IMG/VR virus record: IMGVR_UViG_3300000117_007365
Coordinates: 1,547-38,386 of that record
DNA length: 36,840 nucleotides
Reading direction: 5' to 3' (one strand)
Origin: a virus
This document shows, piece by piece, positions 4,935-31,020 of the stretch. How positions within the stretch are numbered: position 1 is the stretch's first letter; every line of letters begins with the position of its first letter. The notes under the pieces were generated by a model that did no database searches, had not been told where the DNA came from, and worked only from the letters and a program-made list of their open reading frames with translations. A program made the translations under genes and the position numbers.

Positions 4935-5757
4935 CACTATATTCCAATTTATCTTTCCAATAGAGAGCAGATTCTTTGCCCATCAAAACTCCGTTTGCAT
5001 TACAACTTTTACACGGATCATGTAATAAACGCTTACCTTCTAGTAAGTTTTTTCTAATATTTCTGTATTCTTCATTATTCCAAATATTAAGAATATGATC
5101 TTTGTGTACGTTACCAAAAGGTTTTTGTTTTCGTAACCAATCGTTACAACACAGAATTAAATCACCATTCCAATCTACTATGACTTGGTAGGAAGGATAA
5201 TAACAGGGATTGCTAGTAAATGCATCAAACATTAATCCTCCTCTATTGGTAAACTTATATTCTTCATATCTATCAGTTCCATCATCATAATGCCTTCGTA
5301 CTCTTACTTCTTTATGCTTTCTTTCTAAATCTTTAAAAAACGGATTTTTATCATAATCAGAAATTAGAATATTATTTACTCCAGCATTAATTAATTGTTT
5401 AACAGATAATTTATTTTTTGTAAAACAATCACCGTTCGTAACTACTTCAATATTAAACTCTTTTAAGATATTACAAATATCTAAAATATTTGGATTTAGA
5501 GTCGGCTCCCCGAACCCAGTTAGCTGTATGTGTCCTAAAAAACCTTTGAGCTGCTGTTTTATTATTTTTACAGTGTCAAGAGACATGTGGAGTTTTTGAT
5601 TTGGGTAAACTTTAGGATCATGTCTAGGACAAAAGCTACAAGTGCGATTACAGAGTTCAGTAACATTTAATTCGACAGCAGTAATTCCATCAAACTTTTC
5701 TGTTTGTTTGTGGTTTAGTAATCTAAAATTTAAATGCTCATCGAAAAATTTAGTCAT
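4927..5757 (-). CDS. Radical SAM protein with SPASM-like C-terminus
   Basis: A 276-residue radical SAM enzyme. C36, C40 and C43 in ELCNRTCSFCPRH form the CxxxCxxC motif that binds the catalytic 4Fe-4S cluster. HIQLTGFGEPTLNP follows as the glycine-rich SAM-binding GGEP-like strand. Further cysteines at 185, 203-204, 249 and 252 (ILCCNDW, DPCKSC), with the GNVHKDHILNIW linker, are typical of SPASM auxiliary-cluster domains. Such proteins often modify peptides or sugars; the target here is unknown. The gene starts four bases inside the polymerase gene's 3' end region and is the first of the cassette between polymerase and the left-end helicase. It belongs to a different subfamily from the one at 31041-32162. 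Confidence 0.88.
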   Translation of the reverse strand: MTKFFDEHLNFRLLNHKQTEKFDGITAVELNVTELCNRTCSFCPRHDPKVYPNQKLHMSLDTVKIIKQQLKGFLGHIQLTGFGEPTLNPNILDICNILKEFNIEVVTNGDCFTKNKLSVKQLINAGVNNILISDYDKNPFFKDLERKHKEVRVRRHYDDGTDRYEEYKFTNRGGLMFDAFTSNPCYYPSYQVIVDWNGDLILCCNDWLRKQKPFGNVHKDHILNIWNNEEYRNIRKNLLEGKRLLHDPCKSCNANGVLMGKESALYWKDKLEYSDA

Positions 5758-17381: not shown

Positions 17382-18003
17382 AACTGTCTTCCACTAACTG
17401 TTTAAATTCTTTACCTTTTATACCGTGAATAATCATATGATATCTATCTTCATCGCTTTCATTAAAGACAGCGTGAGTGTTACCTACATCTAGAAGTAAA
17501 GCTGTTCCTTCACTGAATGGAACGTAGCCTTCATGCCCTTTCATTTTCATTCTACACCCTTTTGGGTTATTAAGAGCTATGTTGACGGGAGACAAGGAAT
17601 GAGTATCTTGATCTTCATGAGGTGTTATGTAACCACCTGGCTCAAGAAGCATAAATCTTAGCCTATAATACTGTTTAAAAGGAAAAACTTCTTTAAAAAA
17701 CTTATATGTAACAGGACATTTATCTATGATATCAGTCCATCGATAGGGTGTCTCTTCATGAGAACTGTAACCATACTGAACAAAATGATTTGTTTTAGTA
17801 TGATCAATTCCATGTACACATAGACTTCTCCAACCTTTGTGCCTATACCCTCCCATAGCTGCATCACCATCTTGATCTCTATGCGCAACAAACATATGTT
17901 TTAAAGAAATAGCTTCTTGTAACATTTCTTCATAAGGAAATGTTATATCAAGTTTTAGCCAGGGTAGACCACTTTCTTTTACAATCCAATCATACGTTTT
18001 CAT
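17362..18003 (-). CDS. Asp/Asn beta-hydroxylase-like 2OG dioxygenase
   Basis: A 213-residue protein of the PF05118 type. The core reads YYRLRFMLLEPGGYITPHED with H129-x-D131, then H177 (GNTHAVFNES) and R187 (DRYHMIIHG). The LEPGGxIxPHxD line is the family signature. It overlaps the iron-sulfur carrier gene upstream by fourteen bases and the unknown gene downstream by twenty. Hydroxylation of a peptide or small molecule is expected; the substrate is unknown. Confidence 0.82.
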   Translation of the reverse strand: MKTYDWIVKESGLPWLKLDITFPYEEMLQEAISLKHMFVAHRDQDGDAAMGGYRHKGWRSLCVHGIDHTKTNHFVQYGYSSHEETPYRWTDIIDKCPVTYKFFKEVFPFKQYYRLRFMLLEPGGYITPHEDQDTHSLSPVNIALNNPKGCRMKMKGHEGYVPFSEGTALLLDVGNTHAVFNESDEDRYHMIIHGIKGKEFKQLVEDSYEKNGS

Positions 18004-18487
18004 ATAAATCTAACAAATCCTCATCAAAAGCAAAGCTTGTACCGCACCCACAACTAGCTTTTGCACCAGGGTTACTCACTTTTAACATTTTATTCATATT
18101 TGATTCTTCAAGATCAATTTCAGAGCCGTAAAGATATTTTAAACTCATTGAATCAATGATAGCGGGAGGGCTATCAGAAAAAGTAACGTCATCATCATTA
18201 GGATGATCGTCGATATCAAATAGATAGTTAAAACCAGAGCATCCACCGCCTTCTACTCCAAATCTAAAATATTGATTTTCTCCTAGGTTCTCTGAAATAA
18301 ATATCTGAGCCTTAGGAGTAATAGTAGGAAGCTGGCCTTGAAAAGACTCATCAATTGTAGGAGCAAACCCGTGAAAGTCGTCTAGAATTTTTCTATCGAG
18401 ATCAGTTTTTGATCTTAGACGCTCAATCTCAGCTTTATCAGCCATTTCTTCCAATTCTTCAAAGAACTTATCTAAATCATCAGTCAT
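17990..18487 (-). CDS. A-type iron-sulfur carrier (IscA/HesB/ErpA-like)
   Basis: A 165-residue protein whose C-terminal 105 residues are an A-type carrier: GVEGGGCSGFNYLF with C83 and KASCGCGTSFAF with C146 and C148, the three cysteines that hold a 2Fe-2S or 4Fe-4S cluster. The N-terminal 50 residues are an acidic helical extension not present in IscA. Such genes occur in several marine phages. Here it is first after a strong promoter and followed by iron-dependent dioxygenases; two radical SAM enzymes elsewhere in the window are possible clients. GGAGG lies six bases before the ATG. Confidence 0.92.
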   Translation of the reverse strand: MTDDLDKFFEELEEMADKAEIERLRSKTDLDRKILDDFHGFAPTIDESFQGQLPTITPKAQIFISENLGENQYFRFGVEGGGCSGFNYLFDIDDHPNDDDVTFSDSPPAIIDSMSLKYLYGSEIDLEESNMNKMLKVSNPGAKASCGCGTSFAFDEDLLDLYENV

Positions 18488-29077: not shown

Positions 29078-29739
29078 TTTTCAATTAACTCGTACATGTT
29101 GAGGTTATTTTTGATACTCTCTTCGCCATATGTAAATAGGAGATCGATAATTGACGTTGTAGGAAGGGTGAATTTGTTATACATAAATCTTAATTTTATA
29201 GGATTAAAGTAATCAGGCTGATAAAAAATTAAATCTCTTCCGCCTATAGGGTTGATATACATTTCAGCATTGAAATCTTTACAAATCTGTCTAATTTTGA
29301 ACTCAGCGTTTAAGTGTCCAACTTCAAAATCAGATGAATAGTGAAATCTTGTATTAATGGTAAGTAATTTACATATTTCTTCTACAGCAAAGCTAGAAGC
29401 TTTGTAGAACTTCTCTCCTTCACAGTTTCTTACTAAAAACTCTATAAAATCTTTGTATCTATTCCAGTAAGGCTGATCTAAATACATATGTCTCAAGGTT
29501 TCCATAAGTTTGTTAGACCAACCCTCTGAGATATATATTTCGTTTATTTTTTTGTTTTGAGAGGCTTTGACTACAGGTATTGTAAATCTGTGATCATCTT
29601 TTAGCATATTTCGATTGATCCAACCTTTTTTTATCCAAGATACATCGTCTAAAAATACAAACTCATTTACAGCATTAGTTAGCTGAAAGTAGCCTAAATA
29701 AGGAAATAAATATGGCTGCATCACCGCAACTTTAGTCAT
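29074..29739 (-). CDS. WbqC-like family protein
   Basis: A 221-residue protein. Its start, MTKVAVMQPYLFPYLGYFQL, is the WbqC signature (VAIMQPYFFPYLGYFQLI), and the rest (VFLDDVSWIKKGWINRN; RFTIPV) fits the family (PF08889). WbqC genes sit in O-antigen clusters and are linked to coupling of amino acids or acyl groups to amino sugars; the mechanism is not well established. The start at 29739 is the first residue of the signature. Confidence 0.9.
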   Translation of the reverse strand: MTKVAVMQPYLFPYLGYFQLTNAVNEFVFLDDVSWIKKGWINRNMLKDDHRFTIPVVKASQNKKINEIYISEGWSNKLMETLRHMYLDQPYWNRYKDFIEFLVRNCEGEKFYKASSFAVEEICKLLTINTRFHYSSDFEVGHLNAEFKIRQICKDFNAEMYINPIGGRDLIFYQPDYFNPIKLRFMYNKFTLPTTSIIDLLFTYGEESIKNNLNMYELIEK

Positions 29740-30295
29740 TTGGAATACCAATACCAGATTGAAAGATAATATCATTGTCAATAGAGTCAAACAATACTTC
29801 TCCTGCCGATATTAGATTGTTATCTCCTACTGACACTCCATTGATTGCCGATGCATATTGATGAAAAATATTTTCATCGCCCACTACGCAGTCATTATTT
29901 ACCGATGAGTATATGTTAAAAAGATTAAAATCACCTATCTCTGCATTAGCATTGACTAGTGAAAAAGATAGAAAAATATTTCCAATTCCCATAGAACTAC
30001 TACTTGATAAATAACTTGCAGGAGCTCCCATGTTTGGCCAATGAGTTACCGTCATTTCATAGTATTGGCAAAAGTGCTCTAGAAATTTAGATCTCCAAAG
30101 CTGATTAGATGTGCCTAACACAAACTGAGCATTTTTTGGGTAAGTAAATACGCTAGAACCTTCTTCTGTAATAGCAAAGGCTTTGTCATCTCTAAGGATT
30201 ACAAAGCCACCAAAGTCTTGAATTGAATTTTCAACAACAATTTGTTCAAACACTTCCTGAGCAAAGCTGCCGTTACCTAAAATAAAAAGTTTCAT
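29732..30295 (-). CDS. NeuD/PglD-like acyltransferase
   Basis: A 187-residue protein: LFILGNGSFAQEVFEQI at the N-terminus binds the sugar nucleotide, and residues about 95-180 (MGIGNIFLSFSLVNANAEIG; VVGDENIFHQYASAI; VGDNNLISAGEVLFD) are left-handed beta-helix coils. It lacks the His-His site seen in the relative at 28457-29077, so one of the two may be regulatory or differ in acyl donor. AGAGGG precedes its ATG immediately after the tmRNA coding piece. Confidence 0.75.
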   Translation of the reverse strand: MKLFILGNGSFAQEVFEQIVVENSIQDFGGFVILRDDKAFAITEEGSSVFTYPKNAQFVLGTSNQLWRSKFLEHFCQYYEMTVTHWPNMGAPASYLSSSSSMGIGNIFLSFSLVNANAEIGDFNLFNIYSSVNNDCVVGDENIFHQYASAINGVSVGDNNLISAGEVLFDSIDNDIIFQSGIGIPND

Positions 30296-30309: not shown

Positions 30310-30484
30310 AAATGCCACACTTCTGTTGCTAGGCAGTGGCCTCCCCATGAGATCACGCAGCTAAGCGATAATCCTCGGCTACAAAGTTATCGTTTGCAGT
30401 TATTTAAGTCTTGCGGTTAAGGTCGCTTGCGCACCTGCCTCTAAGTTTAGTTTTTACTACGTCTGTCGATCCTAGTTCGCCCCC
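30310..30484 (-). ncRNA. ssrA: Permuted tmRNA, coding piece (mRNA-like domain)
   Basis: Transfer-messenger RNA rescues stalled ribosomes. The coding piece starts with GGGGGCG (30484-30478), which pairs with CGCCTCC of the acceptor piece to give a seven-pair acceptor stem with G3-U70, the alanyl-tRNA synthetase signal. A D-arm-like GGATCGACAGAC follows, then a pseudoknot-like region (CAGGTGCGCAAGCGACC) and ATAACTGCAAACGATAAC around the resume codon. The tag stop is followed by further helices (GGCCACT...GTGTGGC). The 5' end is set by the acceptor stem; the 3' end near 30310 is approximate. Confidence 0.93.
30353..30397 (-). other. tmRNA tag reading frame
   Basis: From resume codon GCA (30397) to stop TGA (30353), the frame gives ANDNFVAEDYRLAA. 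ANDN is the classical alphaproteobacterial tag start and LAA is the ClpXP/ClpAP degradation signal. It is preceded by AATAACT as in other alphaproteobacterial tmRNAs. Confidence 0.95.
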
Positions 30485-30485
30485 A

Positions 30486-30683
30486 TCATAAAAGCACGCG
30501 TAAAGCACAGAATTTTTTATAGTTTTCTTCAAATCCTTCTTCACCGTACACAGCTCGTTCATGATTACCCCAAAGCCTCTTGAGATAGCCATCATATGAC
30601 TCTTCGATTTGCTTACAAGATACTCTACACAAATCACCTTTGACTAAGTAGTATATCCTGCATTTTTCTTTGAACGTTGCCAT
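30486..30683 (-). CDS. 65-residue ORF inside the tmRNA intervening segment
   Basis: An ORF that begins 14 bases after the CCA end of the acceptor piece and stops one base before the 5' end of the coding piece, so it fills the segment that tmRNA processing should remove. The product (CRIYYLVKGDLCRVSCKQIEE; LKRLWGNHERAVYGEEGFEE) is basic/acidic mixed with four cysteines and looks like a foldable protein, but no family is recognised. No Shine-Dalgarno sequence precedes the ATG, so translation is doubtful. Chance openness cannot be excluded. Confidence 0.45.
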   Translation of the reverse strand: MATFKEKCRIYYLVKGDLCRVSCKQIEESYDGYLKRLWGNHERAVYGEEGFEENYKKFCALRVLL

Positions 30684-30697
30684 ATAGCATGCTTTTA

Positions 30698-30740
30698 TGG
30701 TGGAGGCGCGGGGTACCGCCCCCCGGTCCAGTCCGTCTAT
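30698..30740 (-). ncRNA. ssrA: Permuted tmRNA, acceptor piece
   Basis: Lies 5' to the coding piece, so the gene is circularly permuted. It contains a five-pair T stem, CGGGG (30725-30721) with CCCCG (30713-30709), enclosing the seven-base loop GGCGGTA; then CGCCTCC (30708-30702), discriminator A and encoded CCA (30700-30698). The loop keeps C56 and G57 but not the usual TTCGATT. The 5' end is uncertain; it begins close after the TAA at 30742. Processing at both inner ends would give a two-piece tmRNA as in Caulobacter. Confidence 0.92.
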
Positions 30741-30741
30741 T

Positions 30742-30996
30742 TTACCTTACGTCAAACAAGGCACTGTCGATTTCTATTTCTTTTGTAGAGCCTTCTGCTG
30801 ATTTCCAGTTAAAAACTCTAAAATTGTCAGCTTCTAAATCCCAAACCAGCTCCATACCTTCAGGATATGTCTGCTCTGATCCAGCTCCTTGAACTTTATC
30901 ATTCAAAAACTTTTCTGGCAAGTCATAAAGTCTGGCAAAAACCATTTCTCTAGAGTCGCCATTTTTCTTCTTAAAAGATCCTTTATAAGCTTTCAT
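30742..30996 (-). CDS. Small SH3-like protein (WYL_2/DUF2693-like)
   Basis: An 84-residue protein starting MKAYKGSFKKKNGDSREMVF and containing EGMELVWDLEADNFRVFNWK, which resembles the short phage proteins of the WYL_2 (DUF2693) Sm-like family. GGAGG lies five bases before ATG 30996. It is the first gene after the promoter at 31021-31049 and ends just before the tmRNA acceptor piece, so the two are probably co-transcribed. A nucleic-acid-binding role is guessed from the fold only. Confidence 0.7.
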   Translation of the reverse strand: MKAYKGSFKKKNGDSREMVFARLYDLPEKFLNDKVQGAGSEQTYPEGMELVWDLEADNFRVFNWKSAEGSTKEIEIDSALFDVR

Positions 30997-31020
30997 GTAT
31001 ACCTCCAATGTTACTTAACA

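Follow-up and report, generated by a model that had tools for sequence, protein, structure and literature searches.

The intervening segment of permuted phage tmRNA genes as a likely slot for small protein genes

A permuted tmRNA gene gives a transcript that tRNA-processing enzymes cut into two pieces. That phages can encode a tmRNA of this kind is already in the literature: the accessible sections of one study (PMC9004378) list 53 two-piece phage tmRNAs, found by ARAGORN in 18,146 genomes, 50 being marine or aquatic, and those of the tmRNA database paper (PMC11915505) count 79 phage tmRNAs. Among the phages that encode them is Methylophilales phage Melnitz, which infects an OM43 isolate and has Methylophilales H5P1 as its cultured host. 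As for the segment that separates the two pieces in the gene (IVS), the nearest published cases are one that contains a tRNA-Ala and another that contains a repetitive element. A protein gene in the IVS of a tmRNA gene is not mentioned in the openly licensed papers covered by our search, the two main ones as far as their accessible parts go. A reading of the DNA letters made before this analysis (the sequence-only reading) had taken phage tmRNAs to be mostly one-piece genes; this is right as to the majority, but two-piece phage forms were already documented (PMC9004378, accessible sections).

The locus described here lies in a stretch of viral DNA of 36,840 nucleotides, analysed as a whole and referred to as the window. 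Judging from the sequence, we consider it quite likely that the alpha-type permuted tmRNA gene of this marine phage has a working gene for a 65-aa protein in its IVS, and that the IVS serves as a slot in which genes are replaced by others.

The tmRNA gene of the window and its surroundings

The proposal of the sequence-only reading that the window encodes a permuted two-piece tmRNA of alpha type, with the acceptor piece first, is borne out by both relevant Rfam models, which score above their gathering values. In the cmscan search, the alpha_tmRNA model, suggested in that reading as a check, matched positions 30811-30311 of the minus strand with 108 bits (E 9.2e-29, gathering 50), and the tmRNA_permuted model matched positions 30763-30353 of the same strand with 105.4 bits (gathering 47). 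Only these two tmRNA models matched, and no Rfam intron model did, which leaves a group I intron in the window without a match. ARAGORN missed the tmRNA of the window and detected its homologue in contig L282. The acceptor stem that had been read from the sequence was found as described, by reading and by script: GGGGGCG and CGCCTCC form seven of seven pairs, including G3-U70, with A as the discriminator and an encoded CCA. On the minus strand, CGCCTCC, A and CCA occupy positions 30708-30698, and GGGGGCG starts at 30484. Nothing interrupts the T arm, the additional DNA being located between CCA and the coding piece. The peptide tag is encoded in the coding piece, as had been noticed, by a frame (30397-30353, minus strand) that gives ANDNFVAEDYRLAA and ends with TGA; the tag terminates in a hydrophobic AA, as expected of a permuted alpha-type tmRNA. 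The features of the locus are the following:

30742..31008, minus strand: 88-aa ORF directly upstream, with an overlap into the beginning of the tmRNA model (ORF list)
30698..30763, minus strand: acceptor (3') piece of tmRNA, first in the permuted gene, with T arm, CGCCTCC, A and CCA (30700-30698); its 5' limit is the predicted boundary of the Rfam model (RF04321, RF01849)
30485..30697, minus strand: IVS of 213 nt, presumably removed on maturation, with ends that pair with each other (11 pairs in the terminal helix; script)
30486..30683, minus strand: nested 65-aa ORF (MATFKEKCRIYYLVKGDL...), with TGA 1 nt ahead of the coding piece (ORF list)
30311..30484, minus strand: coding (5') piece of tmRNA, with the GGGGGCG strand, the tag and the 3' hairpin region (RF01849)
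30353..30397, minus strand: tag reading frame, ANDNFVAEDYRLAA and TGA (sequence reading, script)
29732..30295, minus strand: 187-aa ORF directly downstream, beginning 16 nt past the end of the tmRNA model (ORF list)

Both flanking ORFs are conserved neighbours in other viral contigs, the 88-aa one in L282, L054, L048, L431, L386 and L363, and the 187-aa one in L282, L068, L054, L048, L386 and L431. This synteny, together with the 38,386-base virus record from which the window was taken and the presence of phage replication genes, places the tmRNA gene in a phage and not in a host chromosome, in agreement with the sequence-only reading. The window encodes a phage-type DNA polymerase, a primase, a DnaB-like helicase and an NAD-dependent ligase. 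The nearest relatives of its polymerase come from phages with genomes of about 110 kb that we take to be T5-like, e.g., Salmonella phage S114 (41% identity). A long sugar-nucleotide/glycan-type cassette (2508-35244, minus strand) includes genes for epimerases/dehydratases, a DegT aminotransferase, a glycosyltransferase, PhyH oxygenases and radical SAM proteins, and an A-type iron-sulphur carrier-like protein (Pfam Fe-S_biosyn) is encoded at 17990-18487 of the minus strand.

The nested ORF and its family

The nested ORF, a feature absent from the sequence-only reading, fills 93% of the 213-nt IVS (30683-30486, minus strand). When the IVS was shuffled with its dinucleotides and ends preserved, the ORF coverage had a p of 0.003, which is the floor of 300 shuffles. 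Between the ORF of the window and that of L281, both located in an IVS, dN is 0.18 and dS is 1.05, with 14, 7 and 25 differences at the successive codon positions. The family comprises at least 263 IMG/VR contigs, and residues K15, G16, Y33, R36, W38, G50, F51 and E52 are invariant across 41 of its members. In sequence terms, the 65-aa ORF thus looks like a real gene that is selected as a protein. The protein is predicted to fold into four helices (mean pLDDT 85), and a fold search with the predicted structure gave no match. The family has no match in Pfam or PHROGs, and hence no endonuclease domain was matched; a group I intron or a homing gene was rejected as an identity of the segment on the lack of an Rfam intron match and of a nuclease family match. 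No homologue of the ORF was found in the annotated phage collection, and none of the family in 289 alphaproteobacterial genomes, in a search run without a positive control. The neighbours of free-standing family members, structural and nucleotide-metabolism genes as judged by eye, gave no functional lead.

Members of the family occur at different sites with respect to RNA genes. They lie inside the IVS of a permuted tmRNA gene in the window, L281, L282, L283, L352, L383 and L011, immediately upstream of a permuted tmRNA gene in L298-L300, L311, L313, L315, L357 and L360, and about 30 nt past a tRNA gene in L284-L288 and L335, while for most of the remaining members no tmRNA or tRNA gene was found within the available flanks. 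The tree of the family needs at least three changes of the IVS location, forced by the starred branches, with a resolution limited by the few alignment columns. All 11 members of the tree group of the window (support 100/98) are adjacent to a tRNA or tmRNA gene.

Several of these loci have peculiarities of their own. The IVS ORFs of L383, L398 and L460, all of the window family, have no ATG, GTG or TTG where the family starts; in L383, whose start codon is unclear, ATA comes after an AGGAA motif. In L284, the IVS of a tmRNA gene (1251-1645) is 383 nt long and contains a 114-aa ORF of a different kind, and the window-family gene follows a tRNA-Arg gene 1.3 kb downstream of this tmRNA. In L335 and L286, where the window-family gene is beside tRNA-Trp, there are tandem glutamine riboswitch aptamers (5099-5208 and 5089-5198, respectively). 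The tag predicted for the tmRNAs of L315 (3172-3586) and L360 (3172-3601) is unusually long, with 29 aa (ANDNASNVFSFVDFSNARKYVNEDFAIAA).

Intervening segments of other phage tmRNAs

Permuted tmRNA genes of phages were collected by motif and via the window ORF family, and their IVSs were extracted by a script that required a full acceptor stem, a T stem and CCA, a subset being checked against Rfam; the IMG/VR loci are fragmentary, and motif sampling favours canonical sequences. When a stop codon within the coding piece was allowed, sense ORFs covered at least 75% of the IVS in 41 of the 67 dereplicated viral IVSs of at least 100 nt, and antisense ORFs in 6; a p of 0.05 was reached by 35 sense vs. 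4 antisense ORFs of this set, which is partly non-independent of the question because a few of its IVSs were obtained via the window ORF family. The IVS ORFs form more than 10 unrelated groups, several of them short and hydrophobic. Bacterial controls collected with the same motif have a median IVS of 34 nt, only one of 99 reaching 100 nt, and among the 150 best-scoring host tmRNA genes of a class-wide search none spans more than 439 nt. Many phage IVSs are likewise short or non-coding, which indicates that the ORF is dispensable for the tmRNA.

Two further ORF families were searched by protein, without regard to tmRNA. Their members are IVS-located in 48 of 72 and 66 of 80 loci, proportions that lean towards IVS members because the query proteins had been taken from IVSs, and the free-standing copies mean that the same genes also live elsewhere. 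The median dN/dS is 0.13 in one of these families and 0.10 in the other; the out-of-frame control yielded no usable pairs for either. In L571-L575, a member of a nested-gene family keeps an IVS-like 3' end and runs on without the tmRNA coding piece, possibly as a result of the loss of the tmRNA around a retained ORF.

With the IVS removed, the tmRNAs nearest to that of the window (80-91% identity of the mature form) belong to phages that share its flanking genes. The IVS of L282 (91% over 223 nt) carries an ORF of the window family, whereas that of the syntenic L068, the best relative of the mature tmRNA (89.5% over 256 nt), is empty, with 29 nt. Unrelated ORFs occupy the IVSs of L054 (86%), L048 (88%) and L363 (80%), and L431 and L386 (80%) have an IVS of 97 nt, which is below the length limit of the ORF test. 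At the level of sequence, the mature tmRNA is conserved among these relatives and the IVS content is exchanged.

The ends of the IVS are a constant element. In each of the 47 ORF-bearing IVSs (ORF coverage of at least 0.7), the two ends pair better mutually than with swapped partners (mean -13.3 vs. -6.8 kcal/mol), which argues that the stem linking the acceptor strands is kept. A Shine-Dalgarno-like motif is present in 32 of the 47; the window, whose ORF has no clear motif of this kind, is not among them. The ORF stops concentrate at positions -1 (15 IVSs), +13 (15), -12 (9) and -7 (3). At +13 the stop is the TAG of the sequence GAANTAG, within the mature coding piece; where the stop is at -1, the final codons of the ORF make up the 3' arm of the IVS stem.

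A proposed mechanism, its alternatives and known systems

In the arrangement that we propose, one transcript would bear both the small ORF and the tmRNA, and ribosomes would translate the ORF from the unprocessed precursor or from a longer operon transcript, as suggested by the overlap of the 88-aa ORF with the start of the tmRNA model and by the distance of 16 nt between its end and the 187-aa ORF. Cleavage by RNase P at the 5' end of GGGGGCG and 3' trimming to CCA would then take the IVS out, leaving the two-piece tmRNA and destroying the message of the ORF. Small unrelated phage genes could be swapped in the loop between the paired IVS ends, which would themselves be kept because they hold both acceptor strands together. 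Use of trans-translation by the virus, which the sequence-only reading had suggested, is plausible as a putative function of the window tmRNA.

It is hardly credible that the 65-aa ORF is a chance frame or a decaying remnant in an IVS that is simply long: some long IVSs are indeed ORF-free (e.g., L085 and L106), but the shuffle p of 0.003 in the window, the coverage of 41 sense vs. 6 antisense, purifying selection and the conserved families speak against it, and the shuffle test and the dN/dS values, both against L281 and in the two other families, led us to reject it. We also regard as very unlikely the recent capture of the tmRNA from an alphaproteobacterial host that had been proposed from the sequence. 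The match to the alpha-type model and the alpha-type acceptor and tag features would fit it, and a capture may stand in a deep sense; however, the closest sequences are phage tmRNAs at syntenic loci, the window scores 108 bits, whereas the 150 best-scoring host genes listed reach about 240-312 bits, and in the alignment with bacterial tmRNA genes, one of the checks suggested, the best controls align over fragments of about 80-100 nt only. The closeness of phage-borne tmRNAs and the fragmentary bacterial matches point to a long residence of the tmRNA in this phage group. Less improbable, although still quite unlikely, is that the small genes behave as selfish mobile elements with tRNA-like ends as their targets, in the manner of the homing genes of tmRNA introns. 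The positions of window-family genes some 30 nt past tRNA genes (L284-L288, L335) and directly ahead of tmRNA genes, as well as the three or more changes of IVS location forced by the tree, could be explained in this way, but no nuclease or recombinase family is matched, the window family is mainly free-standing with no RNA gene nearby, and the IVSs hold more than 10 unrelated proteins, several of them short and hydrophobic.

Plausible and of greater weight, while in our opinion still rather unlikely, is a switch between translation and maturation, by which the ORF and the tmRNA would regulate each other during infection. A ribosome on the ORF might open the IVS stem and reach the RNase P site, and the IVS message left after processing, ending at or before its stop, might be a nonstop or near-nonstop message removed by the tmRNA in an arfA-like manner; in the +13 class, processing would remove the stop and so make the leftover message a tmRNA substrate. 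The clustering of stops at -1 and +13 (15 of 47 each) and the building of the 3' arm of the stem from the last codons in the -1 class favour such a switch. On the other hand, other classes have their stops at -7 and -12, and conserved tmRNA sequence provides the stops (TGA in TATGAT, TAG in GAANTAG), whose placement may therefore be passive. If the switch did operate, and we would not expect it to, the permuted phage tmRNA would be a dual gene, its transcript being either translated or matured and the leftover message serving as a substrate of trans-translation.

The reading of the IVS as a gene slot changes the view of the split-tmRNA spacer, previously treated as discarded, which in marine phages appears to be a recurrent home of small protein genes. 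This use of the IVS is most likely what is new here, the permuted phage tmRNA being already known. The slot would be a further route of gene packing for phages, and it offers a reason for their keeping the permuted form of tmRNA. Annotation of a tmRNA can hide a nested gene, as in Melnitz, where the ORF lies under a feature annotated as SsrA only. When five nested proteins were compared with the annotated phage collection, four had no match and one matched Melnitz records only. A cultured phage makes a possible trade-off between a ribosome-rescue RNA and protein output in infection testable.

Of the known systems, the tmRNA gene of Melnitz (PMC9004378, accessible parts) resembles that of the window in being permuted, alpha-type and phage-borne and in having an ORF in its IVS. 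This IVS of 142 nt contains the SD-like sequence GGAGAAG together with a homologue of the L075 ORF, which the accessible parts of the Melnitz paper do not mention and which is unannotated in the Melnitz record (L002, MZ577095.1, 10054-10218); a gap in the locus tags there, from _85 (the tmRNA) to _88, may mean that adjacent features were deleted from the annotation. Unlike in the window, the Melnitz ORF is of another family, and the genome is T4-like, whereas the polymerase of the window phage is T5-like. The IVS of Pelagibacter phage Mosig is short, with no obvious ORF as judged by eye. Alphaproteobacterial permuted tmRNAs (RF01849, RF04321) share with the window the permuted order, the G3-U70 stem, the T arm, CCA and the tag, but their sampled IVSs are short and hold no comparable gene. 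The tmRNAs with group I introns, some with homing endonuclease genes, are similar in having a protein gene in a removed segment; according to the accessible sections of PMC11915505, that segment is a self-splicing intron in the T loop, whereas the window segment joins permuted halves, matches no intron family and, like its counterparts, encodes a protein without a nuclease match. Although arfA of E. coli (PMC10107115), unlike the window ORF, is not nested in ssrA, it may offer a parallel: the message of this small gene is deprived of its stop and then comes under the control of trans-translation.
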